Assembly: GCA_016124895.1 (NCBI GenBank) | Contig: WGMU01000148.1 | Span: forward strand, 1 to 37,908 | Direction of reading: 5' to 3' | Length of the DNA stretch: 37,908 nucleotides | DNA from: a bacterium | GTDB lineage: Bacteria; Planctomycetota; Planctomycetia; Planctomycetales; Planctomycetaceae | Shown here: one piece after another, positions 2,471-37,189 of the stretch | Layout: the number at the start of each line of letters is the position of its first letter | Position numbering within the stretch: position 1 is the first letter of the stretch | Notes under the pieces: model-generated | Databases searched by the model: none | The model's input: the letters and a program-made list of their open reading frames with translations, nothing else | Told to the model about the DNA's origin: nothing | Position numbers and translations under genes: made by a program

Positions 2471-5400
2471 TTACTCAGAGCTGCCGTCAGAGGACTCGCT
2501 GCCCGATACGGAATCGGCAGCGGAAACTTCATTCCGTCGCGCGTCGGCGGCGGGCTTCGGCTGCCAGGGAGACACCAGCATTGACAGGTCGACCCCGGCG
2601 TCGTTGCCGTCCGTCGCGCCGTCAATCGCCGGATTCTCTCCAGAACTGGACAGAGCGAGCTGGAACGCAGTGAGCGGCAGACTGCTGAAATGGTCATCAA
2701 GAACGCCGGCAGGTCGCGTCGCTTCCGACCAGCTCAGCGTACCGCTCCACGGGCCGACTTCGAGAGACGAACCCCAATACTGTCGCCACTCCTCGAAGCC
2801 GTAGATCTCTTCTGCTGCCGCGATCGACAGATACGTTTCCAGCCGGTCATAAAAGTTCCGCTGCCCGCGCCAGACCAGCATCCGACGAATTTCGTCGGCG
2901 GGAACATCCGCATCGGTGGTGACCAGTGGTGTGTCGGGAGAAGCCGTCAGAATGCAGTTGCGAGGCTGCAGTTCAATGGTCGGACCGTCGACAGAAACCG
3001 GTCCGGAGATCCTCATCAGAGAGCCATGCAGCAGTGCAGAAACATGATCGAGAGAGAGCGAGAGGGACGGACGTTCGGTCACCGGCGAACCGGGTGGCAG
3101 CACATGGAACAGACCATCGAGGGCGGCGGCCGAATTCTCAACGGTCATTTCGAGCCGGCCCGTCACCGCGAGCCGGGCCAGTGTCGCCTCACCTCGCACA
3201 AAACAGTTTCGCAGATCAACGAGTGCTGTTGAGCGTACGTTCGTTGTGGGCATCGTCGTCGGATCGGGAGGCATTTGAGCCGGGTCGGCCGCAATCTCAA
3301 TCAGTGCCGCCGGGCGATGCGTCGGATTGATGATCGAGGCTGTCACCTGTTCAAGCTGCAGCGTCTCGTTTCTCGTCACACCGAACAGGGCGTAACTGTC
3401 CGCTGCCGCGTCGTCCGGAATCAACAGGCGGAATTCGACATTGATAATGTGCAGCGGGCTGCCGACGACGGAGACCATCCGGACGGCGGCATCCGTCGAA
3501 TCGAGATCTGTCGGCGCAAACTCAATCACAGGCCGGAATCCGCGAGCCGCGCGAATGGTGATATTCTTTCGCGCGATGCGGAACGAGCGTTCGGACAGCG
3601 TGCCGTTAAACCGCAGTTCAATCGTGCTGCCGTCGGCTGCTGCTGCGCAGGCGGATTCAAGCGTCCGATACGACTCTTCCTCCTGACTGTCACTCGAAAA
3701 CAGAGTGACGGGATACTCGGCATCGGCGTTTGCGACGGACGTTGCTGCCACTCCTGGCGTCGACTTGCCCGCACTGCTGACTCCCGGTCGCGAGGAACTT
3801 CCCGTCGTAGACGCTCCGGAGTCCGCGGATCTGACGACCGTATTTGCCGGCCGCGGAGTGACGGGCTCTGCGGTTGTCCGTTCGCCCGGTGATGCCGTCT
3901 TCGTTATTGATGATGCGGTGTCGCTGCCAGCAGAGGGCGTCCCTTTCGGAGCAGCATCATTGGTCGAGTCCACAGTGCCGTTTGGCTTATTCGACCCCTG
4001 AGCGATCTCGGCGGTCGTCGGGGCTCCGGGCGCCATTTCGCTGCGTGTGACATCTGCGCCGGTTGTCGTTCCTGAACCTTCCGTCTCGACGGAATTCGAG
4101 GAGGCACCGGATCCGAGCGCTGCGACGGCGTTGCCTGTCTCAGTCGATTCGCTTCCCGCGACCCCGGTTTCTGCTCCGTCTTCCCTGGCAACGATCGGAC
4201 CATCGACCGAATCGTGCCGGGACGAATGGCTGCCAAGTTGCGGAAACGCGGAAAGCAGTCCGACGACGCCAAACAGGATCGCGACGGTCGCAATCCAGCC
4301 AGCGTGCCGCGAGAGCCCGCCTGGTTCAACGGCCTTTGACGCGACCCAGACAAGTCCTTCTGGATTAACACCGCGCAGACCGAGCGTCGCAGCCACGTAG
4401 CTCAGATCGCGAATCAGCAGTTCCGGCGTCTGATACCGACGATTGCGATCGCTGTTCATCATCTTCCGCACGACGGCCGAAAGTTGTTCCGACACGCGAG
4501 GATTGATGGCCGCCGGGTCCGGCGCTTCCTTGCCCTGATGATCAAGCAGCTTCTGCAGAACGGTGCCTTCCGGATACGGCGGCTGCCCGGTCAGCATGTG
4601 ATAGATCGTGCAGCCGAGCGAGTAGATGTCGCTGCGGACGTCAACCGACCGCGGATCTTTCGCCTGCTCCGGCGAGATATAGTCGAACGTCCCGAGCGTC
4701 GTACCAGGCAGCGTCAGGTCGCCCTGCGATTCCGTATTGTCTTTTCGCGCGAGCCCCAGATCGACGAGTTTCGCACGGCCCGTCGGTGTGATGATCACAT
4801 TCGACGGCTTGATGTCTCGATGTACGACTCCCATTGCCGCCGTGTGTTTCAATGCGTAGGCGATCTGCAGCGCGTAATTCACCGCGTCACTCGGCGACAG
4901 GCGACCGTCCGTACGGATCATGTCGCGCACGTTCGAACCGGTGACGTACTCAAACGCAATAAAATGCAAGCCGTTTTCTTCGCCGATGTAGAACACACGG
5001 GCGACGTTTTCGTGATCGAGCCGGGCCGCCGCGCGCGCCTCGTTCTGAAACCGTTTGATCGAGGCATCGTCGTACGATTGCGACGGAGAGAGCAGTTTCA
5101 GTGCGACGTGCCGTTGCAGGCGGGTATCGACGGCACGGAACACGGCTCCCATGCCACCAAATCCGATCCGCTCTTCGATCCGGAAGTGGTCGAGTTCAAT
5201 TCCCGCAGGACTGAGACTCGAATACGTCGATCCGGCTTCGTTCGGCGATGGAAACAGACGGCGCATGATGCTCGCCGATTCGCCGCCAGCCTCCGGACCA
5301 GCAGACAGCGGGGTACTCGGAGTACCGGAATTGATAACGGTCTCGGAACTGGCGAGCCGCGGCACCTGCGCATGACTGGCGGAGTGAGAGCTGCCGTCAC

Positions 5401-5509
5401 GCATGGCTGATGGCAGCGGCTCGACGGAATTCGTCTCGGGCAACGCGGCATTCAGCTCCGCGGCCAAGCCGGGTTCTCGCGTGGATGTGCTGCCGTCGCC
5501 GGTGACCAT
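2471..5509 (-). CDS. Membrane-anchored serine/threonine protein kinase with large extracytoplasmic domain
   Basis: This 1012-residue PknB-like kinase starts at ATG 5509. A Ser/Thr/Pro-rich N-terminus of about 105 residues precedes the catalytic domain. The domain has a glycine loop (IGFGGMGAVF, about 115-124), an ATP-binding lysine in VALKLL (K138), HRDIKPSN with catalytic D232, DLG in place of DFG (D250) and SPEQ (279-282). A single membrane helix lies at about 404-421. The long outer part first has a low-complexity Ser/Thr/Gly linker. From about residue 620 it has a region (LESACAAAADGSTIELRFNG) that looks like the start of a pectin-lyase-like parallel beta-helix. The catalytic domain should be cytoplasmic and the helix-like part outside, which suggests a sensor, but the ligand is unknown. 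Neighbouring genes give no target. Confidence 0.92.
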   Translation of the reverse strand: MVTGDGSTSTREPGLAAELNAALPETNSVEPLPSAMRDGSSHSASHAQVPRLASSETVINSGTPSTPLSAGPEAGGESASIMRRLFPSPNEAGSTYSSLSPAGIELDHFRIEERIGFGGMGAVFRAVDTRLQRHVALKLLSPSQSYDDASIKRFQNEARAAARLDHENVARVFYIGEENGLHFIAFEYVTGSNVRDMIRTDGRLSPSDAVNYALQIAYALKHTAAMGVVHRDIKPSNVIITPTGRAKLVDLGLARKDNTESQGDLTLPGTTLGTFDYISPEQAKDPRSVDVRSDIYSLGCTIYHMLTGQPPYPEGTVLQKLLDHQGKEAPDPAAINPRVSEQLSAVVRKMMNSDRNRRYQTPELLIRDLSYVAATLGLRGVNPEGLVWVASKAVEPGGLSRHAGWIATVAILFGVVGLLSAFPQLGSHSSRHDSVDGPIVAREDGAETGVAGSESTETGNAVAALGSGASSNSVETEGSGTTTGADVTRSEMAPGAPTTAEIAQGSNKPNGTVDSTNDAAPKGTPSAGSDTASSITKTASPGERTTAEPVTPRPANTVVRSADSGASTTGSSSRPGVSSAGKSTPGVAATSVANADAEYPVTLFSSDSQEEESYRTLESACAAAADGSTIELRFNGTLSERSFRIARKNITIRAARGFRPVIEFAPTDLDSTDAAVRMVSVVGSPLHIINVEFRLLIPDDAAADSYALFGVTRNETLQLEQVTASIINPTHRPAALIEIAADPAQMPPDPTTMPTTNVRSTALVDLRNCFVRGEATLARLAVTGRLEMTVENSAAALDGLFHVLPPGSPVTERPSLSLSLDHVSALLHGSLMRISGPVSVDGPTIELQPRNCILTASPDTPLVTTDADVPADEIRRMLVWRGQRNFYDRLETYLSIAAAEEIYGFEEWRQYWGSSLEVGPWSGTLSWSEATRPAGVLDDHFSSLPLTAFQLALSSSGENPAIDGATDGNDAGVDLSMLVSPWQPKPAADARRNEVSAADSVSGSESSDGSSE

Positions 5510-8345: not shown

Positions 8346-9536
8346 ATGGACGACTCGCCACGCAACGTCTCTCGCCCGCGCGTTCTGATTGTCGGGACCG
8401 AGGCGCTCAATCTGCGGATCCCGTTGATGGATCAACTGGCCGAACATGGATTCGATCCGTGTGCCGCCGGCGCCCGCCCGCAGCCGGAATTCGACGAGAC
8501 GCCATACGACTACTTTCCGTACCCGATCTGCCGCACGATCAGCTTCCGGGGTTTCTGCGAGTCGGTGACTTCGTTGCGTGAGGTCATTCGCGCTGCCGGC
8601 CCGGACCTCGTTCACGCAGTCAATACAAAGCCCTGCCTGATCGCACCGCGCGCTGTGCGCGGGCTCGGCATTCCCTGCGTCAGAACGGTGACCGGACTCG
8701 GATCCGCATTCAGTTCCGACGGGCTGCTCTATCGCGGCCTGCGGTTCGCGTTTCGACAAATGCACCACCGCGTTGCTGATGACGTTGTCACCACTGTTTT
8801 TCAAAACCCCGACGACCGCGATTACTTCGTCGAGGCGGGCCTGTGTGTCGCAGACCGTACGCGACTGATCCTGGGGTCGGGCATCGACATCGATCAGATG
8901 CGTTCGGCAGCCAGCTCGCCGAAACGCCTCCACGAGCTGCGAACCGAACTCGATCTGCATGGTCGCACGGTAATCACGATGGTCTCGCGACTGATGCGGA
9001 CGAAAGGTGTTGAAGAACTTATTGACGCCGCGGCCGCCATCCGGCGGCGTTTCCCGAATGCAATCTTCCTGCTCGTCGGACCGCTTGTCGAATCCGGCCC
9101 TGCCGCGCTGTCCGCAGCCGCTGTCACCGGGAATGACTCAGTCAAGTGGATTGGCCTGCGCGATGATGTTGCCGACCTGCTGTCGATCAGCGACGTCTTC
9201 GTTCTGCCCAGCTATCTGCGTGAGGGAATTCCGCGCGTCCTGTTCGAAGCCGGTGCGTTCAAACTGCCGATCGTCACGACCGATATGCCCGGCTGCCGAG
9301 AAACGGTGCGCGACGGCTGGAACGGATTCCTTATCCCGCCGCGCGACAGCAACGCGATCGTCCGGGCACTCGAACCGCTGCTCGAATCTCCCGAACGGCG
9401 ATGGCAGATGGGGCAAAACAGCCTCCAACTGGTTCGCGAACGGTTCGACCTGAGCATCGTCTCGCAGAGCTACGCCGACGTTTACCGCGAAGCTCTCAAC
9501 ATGCCCGTCGAGCACTCACTGACCCGCGCGGCATAA
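8346..9536 (+). CDS. GT4-family glycosyltransferase (PglA-like)
   Basis: The protein has 396 residues from ATG at 8346, with GAGG 8 nt upstream. The N-terminal Rossmann half contains DLVHAVNTKPCLIAPRAVRG and VRTVTGLGSAF. The second is like the 'TKP...TGLG' pattern of PglA-type hexosaminyltransferases. The C-terminal GT-B half has SRLMRTKGVEELIDA (the usual 'RL...KG' donor-site region) and EGIPRVLFEAGAFKLPIVTT, the E-x7-E motif that binds the nucleotide-sugar donor. It most likely adds a sugar to a lipid-linked intermediate at the inner face of the cytoplasmic membrane, for exopolysaccharide, LPS or glycoprotein glycans. Donor and acceptor are unknown. A strong hairpin follows the stop. Confidence 0.9.
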   Translation: MDDSPRNVSRPRVLIVGTEALNLRIPLMDQLAEHGFDPCAAGARPQPEFDETPYDYFPYPICRTISFRGFCESVTSLREVIRAAGPDLVHAVNTKPCLIAPRAVRGLGIPCVRTVTGLGSAFSSDGLLYRGLRFAFRQMHHRVADDVVTTVFQNPDDRDYFVEAGLCVADRTRLILGSGIDIDQMRSAASSPKRLHELRTELDLHGRTVITMVSRLMRTKGVEELIDAAAAIRRRFPNAIFLLVGPLVESGPAALSAAAVTGNDSVKWIGLRDDVADLLSISDVFVLPSYLREGIPRVLFEAGAFKLPIVTTDMPGCRETVRDGWNGFLIPPRDSNAIVRALEPLLESPERRWQMGQNSLQLVRERFDLSIVSQSYADVYREALNMPVEHSLTRAA

Positions 9537-9540
9537 AACA

Positions 9541-9569
9541 GGCCCGGCGCTCTGTTTGAACGCCGGGCC
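9541..9569. terminator. Hairpin terminator between convergent genes
   Basis: There is a perfect 9-bp stem GGCCCGGCG / CGCCGGGCC with an 11-base loop, 4 bases after the glycosyltransferase stop codon. The next gene (9628) ends toward it from the other side, so it may serve both. No run of T follows on either strand, so termination may need Rho, or the hairpin may protect the 3' end. Confidence 0.6.
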
Positions 9570-9627
9570 ACAGTTTGCCGATTTGGTTGCGACGTCGGTC
9601 GATGAATGACGAGGCCGCAGGCAAGGG

Positions 9628-10851
9628 TCAGTTGCCGGACTCGCTGCCTGCGGAACCAGCCGCTGGTGCCGACTCGCTCGACTCGTCGCTTGCCGGCCGC
9701 TGAGGCCGCCCGCTGTCCCCTGCGGAACCGCCGCCTGCCCCGCCACGACCGCCGCCAAAGCCGCTGCGTTGCGGGCGTTCCGGTCCGGGTGGACCGAGCA
9801 GTTCTTTCCACTGAGACTTCTGCTCATCCGTCAGCAGGTCCTGAATCTTCTGCTCGGTCTGTTCGCGAATCTCTCCAAATGCCGCGAAGTTCTGAGTTTC
9901 CCGTGCAGCAGTTCGAGCGGCATCAGCGTCGGCAAGAATTCCGGCCAGCTCTGCGCTCTGCTCATCGCTCAGATTGAGCTGTGAGGCGACATTCTTCCGT
10001 CCCAGTGCAGCCAGGCCAGCTCGCTGCAGATCAATCTGCCAGACGCGACCAAACTGCTTTTCATCGAGCACGCCCTTAACGGCCGCTTCTGTATCGGTTC
10101 GCGATTTCTCCATCACAGCCGCCCGCTCTTCCGGCGAGGCGTCCTGCAGGGATCGGAAATCGACCTGCAGCGTTTCCGCGAGTCCGTCCAGCTTTTCCGT
10201 CTGTTCCGGCGTCAGATTGATTTCCGCAATGACGGCTTCCTCAGCCAGCATTCCCAGCAGTCCGCGCGGTCCCCGACCTCGCCCCTCACCTCCGGAGCCA
10301 CCACCTGAGCCTCCACCGCCGTCAGCTTGAGCGTCGTGACTGGGCGGTCCACCCCCCGCCATCCCAGCCGGCATGGAACCGCCACCCGCCATCATCCCCT
10401 GAGGATCAGCGGTTGCGCTCCCGTCGGCCGGCTCGTTCAAATCGACCACCCAGTTATCCGCCCCCATCTTGTACCAGGCAACGACAGGATCATCGTCACC
10501 TTTTTCAACGACCAGCGTCACCGAATACTTCTTCCAGGGACTGACCCACGAAACCTCGATTTCTTCCTGAGTCGACGAGTTCCCCGACTGGACCGGTTCC
10601 GCGAACTGAGTCAGACCAACGATCTGATGACGGACGTCACTCAATCGCTGAGTTTCGGGACTGGCATGATTAAAGACGTCATCCAGTGTCGCCATCGTCT
10701 TCTCGTAGCTCGTCTTCGCGTACAGCTCCAGACCCAGTCCCAGGATCACGAGAGCAATGATACCCCAGACAACTTTCTCGATGGGCGATCGGGACTTGCG
10801 ACGACTGAGCTGCTGCGTTTCCGACGCTGCATTGCTTGATTCATCCGACAT
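9628..10851 (-). CDS. Membrane-anchored Gly-rich protein with LTxxQ-like repeats
   Basis: The protein has 407 residues from ATG at 10851. A cytoplasmic Ser/Arg-rich start is followed by one membrane helix (about 26-46, VVWGIIALVILGLGLELYA). A soluble region (50-140) resembles a small beta domain with WYKMGADNWVVDL. A Met/Gly-rich linker (150-200) follows. The helical C-terminal part holds three related motifs: NLTPEQTEKL (about 212), NLSDEQSAEL (about 295) and LLTDEQKSQW (about 345). Such LT..Q motifs occur in the Spy/CpxP periplasmic stress proteins. The tail is a Gly/Arg/Ser low-complexity run. I infer an envelope protein; no direct function can be assigned. Confidence 0.75.
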   Translation of the reverse strand: MSDESSNAASETQQLSRRKSRSPIEKVVWGIIALVILGLGLELYAKTSYEKTMATLDDVFNHASPETQRLSDVRHQIVGLTQFAEPVQSGNSSTQEEIEVSWVSPWKKYSVTLVVEKGDDDPVVAWYKMGADNWVVDLNEPADGSATADPQGMMAGGGSMPAGMAGGGPPSHDAQADGGGGSGGGSGGEGRGRGPRGLLGMLAEEAVIAEINLTPEQTEKLDGLAETLQVDFRSLQDASPEERAAVMEKSRTDTEAAVKGVLDEKQFGRVWQIDLQRAGLAALGRKNVASQLNLSDEQSAELAGILADADAARTAARETQNFAAFGEIREQTEQKIQDLLTDEQKSQWKELLGPPGPERPQRSGFGGGRGGAGGGSAGDSGRPQRPASDESSESAPAAGSAGSESGN

Positions 10852-11029
10852 GAGCGTTCCCCTGGAAACAATGGAAGAATGAGGCAGTCCGCAGCCAGAA
10901 CGACTGCGGCAGAACGGCGGTAGCCAGCGAACAGAATGACGTCGTCACAACAAATAAAAAAGTGACGATCAATCACCGGACAGAGCACTCATCCCGAAAA
11001 CAGTCACCACTGAATCATCATCACAAGGC

Positions 11030-11058
11030 CATGATTCTGTGCCCCATCATTCTGTGCC
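11030..11058. repeat. Short tandem repeat, CATnATTCTGTGCC twice
   Basis: CATGATTCTGTGCC (11030-11043) and CATCATTCTGTGCC (11045-11058) form two copies with a 15-base period, just beyond the 3' end of the FAD oxidoreductase gene. Similar short arrays between genes are, to my memory, common in planctomycete genomes. No function is evident. Confidence 0.55.
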
Positions 11059-11085
11059 AAGCCGCGTCCACACGATCGTGTCCTG

Positions 11086-13665
11086 TCACCGCCGCACGAC
11101 GCGCAGCCAGTTGAGACACGTATTCGTCGAACGCCCCGGCAGTCCGATCTCGATCGTCAGCCGCCCGTCCGCAACGTCGACTGTGACCGTCTTCTCGATC
11201 CATTCGCCGGTCAACGTGTCGATGTCTCGAAGAGTTTCGTGGCCTTCAACTGTCACATTCTGCCCGGTCTGATCATGTCCCGAGTCACCGACGCAGACCG
11301 TGACCTCGTAGCGGCCATTGACCACGGCCAGTTCCCAGACATCGTGAGACCGCGTGAACAGAAACGTGTCGCGCTGCTCGCCGTCAATCTGGCCGCGTCG
11401 GCGGTTGCTGGCCGAAATATCCCGCTGCCAGCCGAAACCGCGTTTCCCATCAAACGCGCGGCCGTAATCGTTCACAAAGCCGTCAACCGGCTTCGAACCT
11501 TGCCCCGTAAAGTTGAAGAGTCGCACGTCAGTTGTCGTTCCTTCCGGCAGTGGATCCGGATGGCCATCCGCGTCAGCAGGCAGCGCTGTCTCCTCCCAGC
11601 TCGATTCCGCGGCGTTGAACGGCAGTGCGTCATCGCCATCGGGAATTCCGTCCGCGTCAGCATCATCAGCGCTCGCTTGCTCGAACGGCTGATCGGGCAA
11701 CGACCGGACCGCGGCCCACAATCGCCGTGCGAACTCGCCCCGCGTCTCTGCCCCGTCGAGTTCCAGGATCTCGAAGCCTGCCGGCGGCTGCTTCGTCGCC
11801 AGCGTCAGCCGCACCGCCTCTACCTTCCACTCCAGCGTCGCTGCTTCGTCCGGTTTGAATTCCGCCTTGCGAGGATGCACTGGCAGGCTGCCACGGACGG
11901 CCAGCAGATTCGCCGCCTCGAACGCCGGATGCCCAGGCTCCAGATCGCGAAACGGCCACAGTGTGTTCGGTACGGCACCGTCGATGCGGCTGCAGAGACC
12001 GGACCAGACCTCGCCGAGCAGTCCGCGATCGTACGGAATCTCTCGTGGCCGGCAGTCGCGTGTCACGGCAACGGCCGCGACCGCTCCGGCCGCCGCGCCG
12101 ATCGCCATGCTCTGATCATGCAACCGCACGGCTGAACTGACGATGCTCGAATAACCCAGGTTCTTCTGACAGCCAAGCAACCCGTCGATCTTCTCCGGCA
12201 CCAGGCTTCTCAGCGGGAACTGACTCAGTCCCGAGTACGGTGGTCCCCAAGTGCGGCCTTTGCGGAACGCGGCACGCCACGGTCCGGCGGGATTTCCGTC
12301 GTCGAGGAACTCGCGCCGCGTCGGATGAAAGTCGTACTCGAACTGCCAGCACGCGACGGCGTCGTGATACATGACGTTCGCAAAGTGGCGAGCGTTCCCG
12401 CCGACACCCGTCGTGTCCTGCTGCCGCAGCATGTACTGAGCCTTCAACCGCAGCGACTCGCGAACGTACGGCTTGAACGGCATCCGGTCCGGCGTACCGA
12501 ACTCGTCGGTCAGCTCGAAACGCCGGAAGCTGTGAGTTTTGTCTGGCATCGCGTCATGGACTTCGGTCTGCAGGTAATACAGAAAGCCCAGCGAGTACTG
12601 CTTCGCGTCTTCAAACACGAGCTGCCGCTGTTGCCGAGTCAACTCGACGATGTTCTTCCGCGACGCGCCGGCCTCGGTCGCTTCCAGAGCGTCGGCCAGC
12701 TTCTGTGGATGAACATCGAGCGGGTAATCGAACGCCGGAAAGCACAGCAGCAGCACGTCAGGCTGGGTGACGTCCTCGAAGTTGTAGTGGTCAATGACCC
12801 TCCGGCTCTCATACAGCCACAGCGGATCCTTCGGGTAGGTGTGCGTTCGGTAGTTTCGCACATCGTAGCCGACCGGCTGAGCGATCGGCTCGTACCGGTC
12901 GGTCTCGTTGAGCACCATGCAGTACGTGATCGGGTTCATATCGGTCAGCGGGTAACCCTCGCGCGATTCCGGCGCGAGCGGTTCGCCGTACTTCGACTTG
13001 AGGTCCGGCCCGAACTCGTACGCCGCCCCGGCCAGTTTGATCGCGTCACCCCAGTCCGACGCGTCGATGGTTAGCTTCGCCTCGACGGTCAGCCGCGAAT
13101 CCACATCGTCGGTCGCCGCAAACGTTATCGCCGTCAGCCGGTCCCCATCGCGCGTGGCCGCGATCGGATAATGATTCGAGACGATCGTCAGTTGCCCCGA
13201 ATCAACATACGGCCGCACGAGTTCCCGAAACGCCTGAGCCGCGTCGCTGGGCCGGCAGGTCGTAATCACCCGCGTGTTGCCCGGTCGAGCCCGGCCGTAC
13301 TTCTGCTTGTTGATCTGCTCGATCCGATCGATGACCTCTCGAAACATGCCGTTCCGTGGGAAGGGAACCGTATGGTCATACCCCGCCGGCCCACGATTCT
13401 CGTCGATCGCCAGCAGAGCCTCCGCCGAAAACTGCCCGCCGAGCCACTCGATATCGTTGACCAGAACAATCCGTCTGACGCCCATCCGAGCCGCCTGCAC
13501 CGCCGCCGCGCACCCGGACTCCGTCCCGCCAACGATGAGGACGTCGGCGGTCAGCGTGCGGTCTTTGGCAACTACTGCCTGAGAGTCCGCCATCATCAAC
13601 AACTGACAGCAGATCGAAGCAACGATCAAGCGCCAACAAATGCCGTCAGGAGGAGGTGATTTCAT
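11086..13665 (-). CDS. Secreted FAD-dependent oxidoreductase with calcium-repeat linker and C-terminal carbohydrate-binding-like domain
   Basis: The protein has 859 residues from ATG at 13665, chosen because GGAG lies 8 nt upstream. An earlier ATG at 13737 would push the signal peptide inward. Residues 1-33 form a signal peptide ending near ADSQAVVA. VLIVGGTESGCAAAVQAARM (43-62) is the dinucleotide-binding fold of the FAD_oxidored (PF12831-like) family, and EWLGGQFSAEAL follows it. The catalytic part reaches about residue 660. A thrombospondin-type-3/EF-like segment (DADADGIPDGDD, near 668) then leads to a beta-rich end (about 715-859). That end contains YGRAFDGKRGFGWQRD and NGRYEVTVCVGDSGH and resembles malectin-like or rhamnogalacturonan-acetylesterase N-terminal sugar-binding domains. 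I infer that it oxidises a polysaccharide-related substrate outside the cytoplasm. Confidence 0.85.
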   Translation of the reverse strand: MKSPPPDGICWRLIVASICCQLLMMADSQAVVAKDRTLTADVLIVGGTESGCAAAVQAARMGVRRIVLVNDIEWLGGQFSAEALLAIDENRGPAGYDHTVPFPRNGMFREVIDRIEQINKQKYGRARPGNTRVITTCRPSDAAQAFRELVRPYVDSGQLTIVSNHYPIAATRDGDRLTAITFAATDDVDSRLTVEAKLTIDASDWGDAIKLAGAAYEFGPDLKSKYGEPLAPESREGYPLTDMNPITYCMVLNETDRYEPIAQPVGYDVRNYRTHTYPKDPLWLYESRRVIDHYNFEDVTQPDVLLLCFPAFDYPLDVHPQKLADALEATEAGASRKNIVELTRQQRQLVFEDAKQYSLGFLYYLQTEVHDAMPDKTHSFRRFELTDEFGTPDRMPFKPYVRESLRLKAQYMLRQQDTTGVGGNARHFANVMYHDAVACWQFEYDFHPTRREFLDDGNPAGPWRAAFRKGRTWGPPYSGLSQFPLRSLVPEKIDGLLGCQKNLGYSSIVSSAVRLHDQSMAIGAAAGAVAAVAVTRDCRPREIPYDRGLLGEVWSGLCSRIDGAVPNTLWPFRDLEPGHPAFEAANLLAVRGSLPVHPRKAEFKPDEAATLEWKVEAVRLTLATKQPPAGFEILELDGAETRGEFARRLWAAVRSLPDQPFEQASADDADADGIPDGDDALPFNAAESSWEETALPADADGHPDPLPEGTTTDVRLFNFTGQGSKPVDGFVNDYGRAFDGKRGFGWQRDISASNRRRGQIDGEQRDTFLFTRSHDVWELAVVNGRYEVTVCVGDSGHDQTGQNVTVEGHETLRDIDTLTGEWIEKTVTVDVADGRLTIEIGLPGRSTNTCLNWLRVVRR

Positions 13666-34516: not shown

Positions 34517-35728
34517 CTACGGTACCGACGTCAGCAGTTCTGCCCTGATTGCGATTCGCTGCCAGGTCACGGCTGATGTGCCTTCGCCGTCCAGGATCGA
34601 ATAGACGGAATTCATCAGACGCAGGCCGTCACGGATCGTCGCTTCGGACGCGACTTTCTCCGTGTGAATCAGGCGGAAGTTCTGTGAGTCGTTTTCCGCC
34701 AGCAGGCAGTACAGCAGGTTGCCGCGACGGGCGAGACGCAGTGTGCCGGACGTTGACTCTTCTGCGGTTTCTCCGGGAAACGTGACAACGTTTGTTCCCG
34801 ATCGATCCCGATTGAACTGCGTCTGAGCGATCTGGCGGTCATGCTTCCCGGGCCGTCGCAGAGTTCCGCGGAAGACACCCGCCTGCGTCCGTTCCGGGTC
34901 GTCTGTCACGGTCTTGAGAAAGATCCCGTTGGACGAATCGATCGGCCCCGTTGTCTGCAGATCGGCAAACCGGGCCTGTACGTCGAAGTCGCCGTGCAGT
35001 TGCAGTCGCGGTGACAGCCAGCCGGCGGCGTATCCTTTCGCGCCGCGGACCAGCAGGCGGGCTCCCCGATCCGGTAGAACGGTTGCTTCGGAATGCTTGC
35101 CGACAACGTCGAACATTCCGTCGGGCAGTCCCTCTTCTGCGAAGTCGTGCTCGAAAGTCGCTGTCAGTCCGGGCAGCCGTTCATCAAGAAAGGCCAGTTC
35201 GTGCGTCGCCAGTTCCTGTTCGTCGACCGGCGGCAGCGACTTCGGCCAGTCACCGCGCCACACGATGTTGCGCACGCGAGCTTCCGTCTGTTCCCCCCAG
35301 TGAAACAACCCGAACGTCCGCTGGCTGGCGGGGTCGATCGGACCGCGATAGATCGACTGCTCATTGAGCACAAGTTCGAGCACGTCGCCGGTAACGATCA
35401 GACGCAGACGGTTCCAGTCGTTGTCCCGCAACTTTGTCGGCGCGAGGGCGAGATTCGAAGTTTCGAGGGGCGACATCCCGGTGCGGTCAAACGCGCCATC
35501 GGTGATCCAGTGCTGCCGGACACCGTCGCGACCGATCACGAACGCCCGTCGGTCCAGCGCCGGGTACACGGCTGACTCGCGTTCACGGTAGTAGAAGTCG
35601 TACTCGATCGTGCCGTCTTCGAGCATCGGGCGGTGATACCGCAGCAGCCGCTCGACAATGAAGCCGTCGTGCCACGGTTCGCGCTGACCGATGATCGTCC
35701 CGCCGGAAAACAGCTCAAACGAATACTT
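34517..35728 (-). CDS. DUF1583 protein, C-terminal part after an in-frame TGA
   Basis: This is the continuation of the gene at 35729-37189 in the same frame. The sense codons right after the TGA read KYSFELFSGGTIIGQREPWH and then HRPMLEDGTIEYDFYYRERE. These are family-typical, so the two parts were once one reading frame. A separate start at ATG 35626 is possible but would remove about 34 conserved residues. The region holds beta-rich concanavalin-like or LamG-like segments (TFGLFHWGEQTEARVRNIVW, then FEHDFAEEGLPDGMFDVVGK). I count 403 codons here. It may be translated only by readthrough, or not at all. Confidence 0.75.
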   Translation of the reverse strand, partial: KYSFELFSGGTIIGQREPWHDGFIVERLLRYHRPMLEDGTIEYDFYYRERESAVYPALDRRAFVIGRDGVRQHWITDGAFDRTGMSPLETSNLALAPTKLRDNDWNRLRLIVTGDVLELVLNEQSIYRGPIDPASQRTFGLFHWGEQTEARVRNIVWRGDWPKSLPPVDEQELATHELAFLDERLPGLTATFEHDFAEEGLPDGMFDVVGKHSEATVLPDRGARLLVRGAKGYAAGWLSPRLQLHGDFDVQARFADLQTTGPIDSSNGIFLKTVTDDPERTQAGVFRGTLRRPGKHDRQIAQTQFNRDRSGTNVVTFPGETAEESTSGTLRLARRGNLLYCLLAENDSQNFRLIHTEKVASEATIRDGLRLMNSVYSILDGEGTSAVTWQRIAIRAELLTSVP

Positions 35729-37189
35729 TCAGTAGGCGTCCGGGCCGTCGAGTGGCTCACCGTGGCAGGCGTACCAGCCGGTCAGGCTGGGGCTGACGGA
35801 CAGATAAACCTGTTCGGGAATGACCGGGCTGCCGGTGATCCGCAGGTTCCGCACGCCACCGTCCGCATACGACGGGCTGCGAATTGCGAGCCACGGATCG
35901 CGACCGAACGGCAGCGGCTCGGTGTGAATCAGCCGGCCGTTGAAGTACGTCGCACATTGGCCGTTGCGGACGACGGCTCGATAGCGAATCCAGTCACCGC
36001 ACTCGGTTAGCCGCGGTTCGATTTTCCCGGACGGCCGAGCGCTGCGAAACGAACCAGTTCCATACGACAAGTGATCGTAAATCGGCGCGACATATGTGCC
36101 GGCAACCATCAGATGCGTGTCCCGCCAGTTGAAACTGCTGACCTCACATTCGACCTCGAAGTCGCCCATCATCGGGATGCGGTAATAGAGATAATCGTCA
36201 TCGTGACTGGCGATGTTTTCGACGCGGCCGCGCGACAGCACCCAGGCAGCCGTCGGCATTCCCAGCCCACGCGACCAGATGTCCGTTCGGCTGGCTGGAG
36301 CCCAGTTCTGCAGCGCGACCTGCGAACCGGAGAAGTTCAGCGAATGAACGTGTCCGGCCGACGCCGCGACCCAGCGATCCCAGGCCGTCGGGCCGTTCGC
36401 GACACCGACTCGAACCTGCGACTGCAACATCCTGTGCAGCGTTTCCGTCGCCGCATCGCGAGTCTGATCGTGCTGCAGGCACTCATGGACAGCCAGCGTT
36501 TCCGGCCAGCGGTCCCGGAAGTCCGGCCGAGTCGACGCCATGACGCGATCGAATAGCTCGTCCAGACTGACGAACGCCCGATCGAAGTCTTCGAGGGCGA
36601 CATCAACAAGCCCCAGCAGTGTGAGGCGGCACCGCTGTTGAATCTCGCCGCGTGGAGTCGACGCCTGGATCTGCTTCCGGATTTCAGGCAGCCGCCTCAA
36701 CTGAGCGGCCAGGTGAATCAGATCAAGCGCCGGCGCAACGAGTTCGCCTCCGGTCTGCACACGCGACGCGCCGGTGCGAGCCGCCGCGACAATACGTCGC
36801 TCATCGAGCGGGCCGCGCACCGGCGGTGCGGGATGTGTTGGTGAGAAGTCGATTGCGAGGCGAAACGTCTCGTGATCGTCGCCCGGCAGAACCCAGTTCA
36901 TCAGAAACTCAAAACGCTGCTCTGGTGGCATCGTCAGCGCCCGGCGATGAATTTCGAGCGCCGCCTCTTCGACGTGTTGATCCGCGAAGATTGTGCCAAG
37001 CACTTGTCGCGAAGAAGCAGACATACCCGCTGATCTTCGCTCGCCACCGTCTGGCGCACTGGCTGCTGAACTCAGTTTCAAGCCCGCGAGGATCAGCACA
37101 AGAGTCGTAACCGGCCAGTACAAGGCACCGGCATTCCGGCGCCGACCAGCCGAGGTTCTGCGTGGAAACGATAAACAAAAAGCGGACAT
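35729..37189 (-). CDS. DUF1583 protein, N-terminal part ending at an in-frame TGA
   Basis: The gene reads 486 residues from ATG at 37189, with GGAGG about 13 nt upstream (GTG at 37192 is an alternative). A signal-type hydrophobic stretch (LYWPVTTLVLILAGLKLSSA) follows the basic start. The helical middle precedes DUF1583 hallmarks: DIWSRGLGMPTAAWVLSRGR, YLYYRIPMMGDFEVECEVSS, FNWRDTHLMVAGTYVAPIYD and RYRAVVRNGQCATYFNGRLI. It stops at TGA (35729-35731) after GEPLDGPDAY. In related proteins I expect a tryptophan here, so TGG to TGA is a simple explanation. A longer N-terminal reading from TTG 37297 is rejected. Confidence 0.8.
   Translation of the reverse strand: MSAFCLSFPRRTSAGRRRNAGALYWPVTTLVLILAGLKLSSAASAPDGGERRSAGMSASSRQVLGTIFADQHVEEAALEIHRRALTMPPEQRFEFLMNWVLPGDDHETFRLAIDFSPTHPAPPVRGPLDERRIVAAARTGASRVQTGGELVAPALDLIHLAAQLRRLPEIRKQIQASTPRGEIQQRCRLTLLGLVDVALEDFDRAFVSLDELFDRVMASTRPDFRDRWPETLAVHECLQHDQTRDAATETLHRMLQSQVRVGVANGPTAWDRWVAASAGHVHSLNFSGSQVALQNWAPASRTDIWSRGLGMPTAAWVLSRGRVENIASHDDDYLYYRIPMMGDFEVECEVSSFNWRDTHLMVAGTYVAPIYDHLSYGTGSFRSARPSGKIEPRLTECGDWIRYRAVVRNGQCATYFNGRLIHTEPLPFGRDPWLAIRSPSYADGGVRNLRITGSPVIPEQVYLSVSPSLTGWYACHGEPLDGPDAY

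Follow-up and report, generated by a model that had tools for sequence, protein, structure and literature searches.

A gene of the DUF1581/DUF1583 family near the end of the window is interrupted by a TGA at codon 487, a position where its close relatives encode tryptophan. Probably one member of this multi-copy family has recently lost a conserved Trp codon to a G-to-A nonsense substitution. The window, meaning the whole stretch of DNA that was analysed (37,908 nucleotides), is contig C41 of a draft genome that totals 8.13 Mb, is spread over 195 contigs and is estimated to be 99.78% complete; the genes and the closest named relatives point to a planctomycete. One G-to-A change would have converted the TGG of codon 487 in this family member into TGA. 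If, as is probable, the base is really present in the genome, translation would end at the TGA and yield a product of 486 residues.

The TGA was located at positions 35731-35729 of the minus strand, in frame with both flanks and with no frameshift, as the sequence-only reading had described it. If the TGA is taken as Trp, the frame extends from the ATG at 37189 to a TAG at 34519-34517 and counts 890 codons, in good agreement with the protein of about 890 residues that had been proposed for a change of TGA to TGG. Apart from codon 487, no stop and no frameshift was found across these 890 codons. The N-terminal part, from the presumed start at ATG 37189 to the TGA (35729-37189, minus strand), comprises 486 residues, and the continuation (34517-35728, minus strand) adds 403 codons up to the TAG.

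Three Pfam domains were found in the read-through protein (P0001), in the order known for the family and all above the curated cut-offs. These were DUF1581 (PF07619; 35756-35980, residues 440-514 of P0001, 77.1 bits, E 1.2e-21), DUF1583_N (PF20407; 35240-35659, residues 547-686, 173.4 bits, E 3.3e-51) and DUF1583 (PF07622; 34526-35221, residues 693-924, 118.6 bits, E 3.7e-34), each on the minus strand. The frame through them is broken by the TGA at codon 487; when the two sides were scanned apart, DUF1581 was detected before the stop and DUF1583_N and DUF1583 after it. The orthologue from a congener aligns through the site as well, so that the shared frame of the two flanks is not a matter of chance. 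The gene shares the domains, their order and the conserved Trp positions with the planctomycete DUF1581/DUF1583 family, which has 14 matching places in this genome, and differs from it in having a stop between the first and the second domain. The NCBIfam scan of the interrupted protein gave no match. Of 20 other open frames in the window that were scanned against Pfam, 15 matched a family; no second interrupted gene was noticed. Two of the window's open frames, 1057-2700 and 2471-5509 (both minus strand), share 230 bases; in the former, an aminotransferase domain begins only at residue 170, so the true start of this frame probably lies downstream.

In order to establish the ancestral residue, homologues were compared at the site. 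Among the 14 matching places in the own genome, the only stop was that of the interrupted gene itself, the 13 others being stop-free. The homologous codon is TGG in 7 of the 9 paralogues examined (L010-L018); the exceptions are L017, which is cut by a contig end and has its Trp one residue off, and L012, which has no Trp there. A partial tandem copy on C59 (present in L015, L019 and L020) aligned a Gly to the site. Some of the paralogues are clustered, on C92, C59 and C46, in part within open frames of up to 1712 codons. The orthologue in G001, the single congener searched, is 68-69% identical through the site and has TGG there. Intact relatives therefore hold, one base away, the sense codon that is expected of a nonsense pseudogene (TGG in the orthologue and in 7/9 paralogues). 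A first scan of the genome contigs with a single protein had found no relative.

In loci from other genomes that overlap and cover the site, the best segment showed TGG in 15 of 25 cases and another codon in 10. All 10 of the latter are below 31% identity, so that the placement of a single column is unreliable in them. The comparison was also made with an independent query, the intact congener protein, against 37 named loci, in which the TGA of the window plays no part. The site was covered in 36 of the 37 loci (L109 being the congener's own gene, at 100% identity) and Trp was found in 33 of these 36; in L116 and L122 the Trp lies one column away and in L134 there is none. In alignment A2, built from 21 of the 37 named loci chosen for long unbroken frames, Trp occupied position 487 in 21/21 other rows, while the neighbouring columns were variable. 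These results agree with the earlier suggestion of a lost tryptophan codon. As to whether W is conserved in DUF1583 homologues, this was the case in close relatives, and below about 31% identity another residue is often found. The Trp is missing from many relatives below that identity and so is not shared by the family at large. None of the homologues that cover the site terminates at it, an outcome that would have spoken against the proposal. Neither a Cys residue nor a Cys codon was present at the site in the covered named loci, and no aligned homologue had Cys.

A conserved recoding site shared with the congener was also considered and was rejected, as G001 has TGG at the homologous codon within an unbroken frame of 894 codons. 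A TGA does occur at the congener locus, upstream and outside this frame.

Selection on the two halves of the gene was evaluated against the orthologue, from which it is separated by a dS near 1. The dN/dS value was 0.17 before the stop (codons 60-486, 427 codons) and 0.174 after it (403 codons). Lineage changes, counted for the window and the congener with the paralogue L010 as outgroup, were 27:25 before the stop and 25:24 after. Both sides were thus under purifying selection up to recently, and no relaxation after the lesion was seen in either the dN/dS values or the relative rates. Unconstrained time after the stop makes up at most some 23% of the lineage, by a rough 95% bound. Equal dN/dS and equal rates on either side, together with the lack of a further lesion, indicate that the stop is either young or not real, and that any loss of the gene is recent. 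Such a loss may be tolerated, since eight other nearly full-length family copies, besides partial ones, remain in the genome. Belinky et al. (2021, PMC7918605) report that in-frame stops in conserved bacterial genes tend to be short-lived, lasting about as long as population polymorphisms. The present stop resembles those stops: it is the lone nonsense codon of its gene, dN/dS is well below 1, and no further decay is seen. It differs from them in that one genome represents the species here.

The second half of that alternative, a stop that is not real, corresponds to an error of sequencing, assembly or population consensus, in which case the genome would have TGG and the gene would be intact. 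This explanation is considered somewhat unlikely, although several observations are in line with it. A single base is changed, dN/dS and relative rates are alike on either side, and a base-call or consensus error would account just as well for the missing decay. The assembly is in draft state, with 195 contigs, and frame breaks were found in 4 of the 37 named homologous loci, all four from metagenome assemblies, which shows that lesions of this type, genuine or artefactual, occur in drafts. On the other hand, stops were found in only 3 of 257 family matches in the own genome, a count that includes TGA 487 and a selenocysteine candidate described below, and the assembly is therefore not error-rich. 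Moreover, G-to-A changes are among the commonest real mutations. The loci with frame breaks, judged by segment coordinates, are L131, L132, L137 and L144. Internal stops were seen in L137 and in a neighbouring copy in L142; broken copies of the DUF1583 family are not rare.

In order to evaluate what termination at codon 487 would mean for the protein, the structure of the read-through form was predicted (mean pLDDT 86.1, pTM 0.83). The model shows a helical part at about residues 58-284 followed by three beta-rich domains, a division read from the strand list; the N-terminus, judged by eye, is hydrophobic and signal-like. The second beta-rich domain opens with a strand that begins at residue 487, and the stop is therefore predicted to sit at a domain boundary. 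Termination would leave 486 residues, made up of the helical part and the first beta-rich domain, and the second and third beta-rich domains would be missing. Given the predicted boundary, the truncated protein might still fold and be functional. The idea that the second half is translated separately was rejected: the first in-frame ATG, GTG or TTG past the stop (35624-35626, minus strand, the 35th codon on) lies inside the second beta-rich domain, and a start at 35626 would lose its first strands. The solved-structure profile search gave no match. The structure search retrieved laminin-G, neurexin and glycosidase-like folds with TM-scores, by query length, of at most 0.17 among the matches listed; with scores this low no function follows, and no enzyme function is claimed.

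The position of the stop between two predicted beta-rich domains is one of several observations that would suit a functional leaky stop. In such a case tRNA-Trp would misread UGA-A at some per cent, giving mainly the product of 486 residues and small amounts of the 890-residue one. The TGA is followed by A, a context in which tRNA-Trp of E. coli is described as prone to misread UGA (PMC5289835); readthrough of this kind would restore the ancestral Trp. Purifying selection extends past the stop, and in-frame bacterial stops with dN/dS below 1 are reported to be widespread (PMC7918605). The genome also has a second, odd tRNA-Trp(CCA) on C84. A recent mutation, however, yields the same dN/dS, and the stop occurs in no relative that covers the site, which gives no sign of retention. 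The tRNA-Trp(CCA) on C74 has a normal anticodon stem of 5 pairs. In the C84 copy the bottom pair of this stem is mismatched, in contrast to the tRNA form shown to read UGA, whose anticodon stem is unpinned at its top (PMC13092985). The reading as a functional leaky stop is thus regarded as improbable. Its more specific version, a UGA kept as a regulatory leaky stop at the domain boundary, with the 486-residue form as the main and the 890-residue form as the minor product, possibly by way of the C84 tRNA-Trp, is held to be highly improbable. Under the preferred reading of a recent nonsense substitution, the leakiness of UGA-A in E. coli (PMC5289835) still makes low-level misreading by tRNA-Trp possible, and the silencing of the gene may be incomplete.

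The tRNA complement was surveyed more widely. Besides tRNA-Sec, no tRNA with a UCA anticodon, and hence no UGA suppressor of this kind, was called among 46 candidate places (30 of them in individual loci and 16 in L085 and further stretches; a weak place on C167 was not called a tRNA). As 150 of 153 first-look candidates were scored, this survey may be incomplete. Neither a tRNA-Trp(UCA) nor a top-unpinned tRNA-Trp(CCA) with 4 pairs was found among the tRNAs examined. The odd tRNA-Trp(CCA) of C84 belongs to a group of 14 tRNA genes within 3 kb (L097, positions 8681-11720, minus strand) on a contig of 11.9 kb, several of them low-scoring.

If UGA were read as Trp throughout the genome, the orthologous codon would be expected to encode Trp, as it does. 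In-frame TGA at Trp sites should then be frequent, and this was not observed. Internal stops were found in 0/103 matches to PSD1, 1/60 to SBP_bac_10 and 1/80 to sulfatases, figures that refer to matches and not to genes (all first-look candidates were scored for PSD1 and SBP_bac_10, and 150 of 179 for sulfatases). The SBP_bac_10 stop lies at an Asn site and belongs to the selenocysteine candidate; that of the sulfatases is a TAA in a weak match, so that neither is a TGA at a Trp position. The interrupted gene itself has 20 TGG codons and 1 TGA. No tRNA-Trp(UCA) being at hand among the tRNAs examined, and the congener's orthologue using TGA as its own terminator, a general reading of UGA as Trp was rejected as vanishingly improbable. 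A sulfatase gene (C33:31985-32937, L146) extends over two frames and is apparently frameshifted.

The insertion of selenocysteine at UGA 487 was tested because the genome holds machinery for it. A tRNA-Sec with UCA anticodon was identified (73.8 bits), selA is present, and SelB was recognized by its wing domain only (63.9 bits). Selenoproteins have been reported in other planctomycetes, though not in all of them (PMC4807772). The interrupted gene does share with the bacterial selenoprotein genes described in PMC1794560 and PMC9312934 an in-frame UGA and a genome that encodes selA, SelB and tRNA-Sec. In those genes a SECIS element follows the UGA directly downstream. The likeness does not extend to the site. 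Nearly all selenoproteins have Cys homologues according to PMC9312934, whereas here the close relatives have Trp, none of the aligned homologues has Cys and the congener has a sense codon. The RNA past the TGA showed no SECIS-like fold either: segments of 46 and 66 bases from the TGA folded no better than shuffled sequences (z 0.18 and 0.97). Within 60 bases from the TGA (35672-35731, minus strand) only short hairpins were present, and none had the GGUC loop of the DUF1559-type comparison gene. Certain bacterial SECIS elements are known to depart from the consensus (PMC9312934). Selenocysteine at this position was rejected on residue, fold and conservation. Of the three origins that the sequence-only reading had offered, two are still tenable, a real nonsense mutation of recent date and an error in the sequencing, while readthrough by selenocysteine is practically excluded.

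The comparison gene is of the DUF1559/SBP_bac_10 type and lies on C24 (25355-26113, minus strand; L149:556-1314) of the same genome. It has an in-frame TGA at codon 41 (L149:1192-1194). The same codon is a TGA in this genome (G000), in the congener G001 (L151), in G051 and in G047 (L152 and L153). Within loci L150-L157 the TGA was present in 4 of 8, the other four having Asn, or Asn and Gly. It stands where ordinary paralogues have the first Asn of their NNLKQ motif. In 4/4 genomes a GGUC-loop hairpin with 4 to 7 pairs follows 23 bases past this TGA, inside a run of 16 invariant bases. Judged from these sequence features, the DUF1559-type gene is a candidate selenoprotein gene, with Asn and not Cys in its relatives. 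The two TGAs differ clearly: that of codon 487 is unshared, has Trp in the relatives and lacks the GGUC loop, whereas that of the DUF1559-type gene is shared and looped. Matches in G024 and G022 also hold a TGA, with Asn at the codon-41 site. Further TGA-holding matches of this type were noted in G014 and G038, and a second one in G051. The congener's copy (L151, C951:3272-4012) has an in-frame TAG further on, possibly a true nonsense codon or an assembly error. The gene gave no match to NCBIfam. As to earlier reports, the one paper found to mention DUF1559 together with selenocysteine or selenoproteins was PMC4807772, whose main text names DUF1559 once, for the size of the gene family, and the name does not occur in the main text of the 2026 selenoproteome review PMC13188914.

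Taken alone, TGA 487 carries little weight: it is a young nonsense allele or a base error in a multi-copy family. Selenocysteine insertion is probably possible with the machinery of this genome, so that automated scanning could label the interrupted gene a selenoprotein. It is in this respect that the gene is useful as a filter case, in which the tests of conservation and of SECIS structure speak against such a call. The same two tests gave a better candidate in the same genome, the DUF1559-type protein with its conserved UGA.
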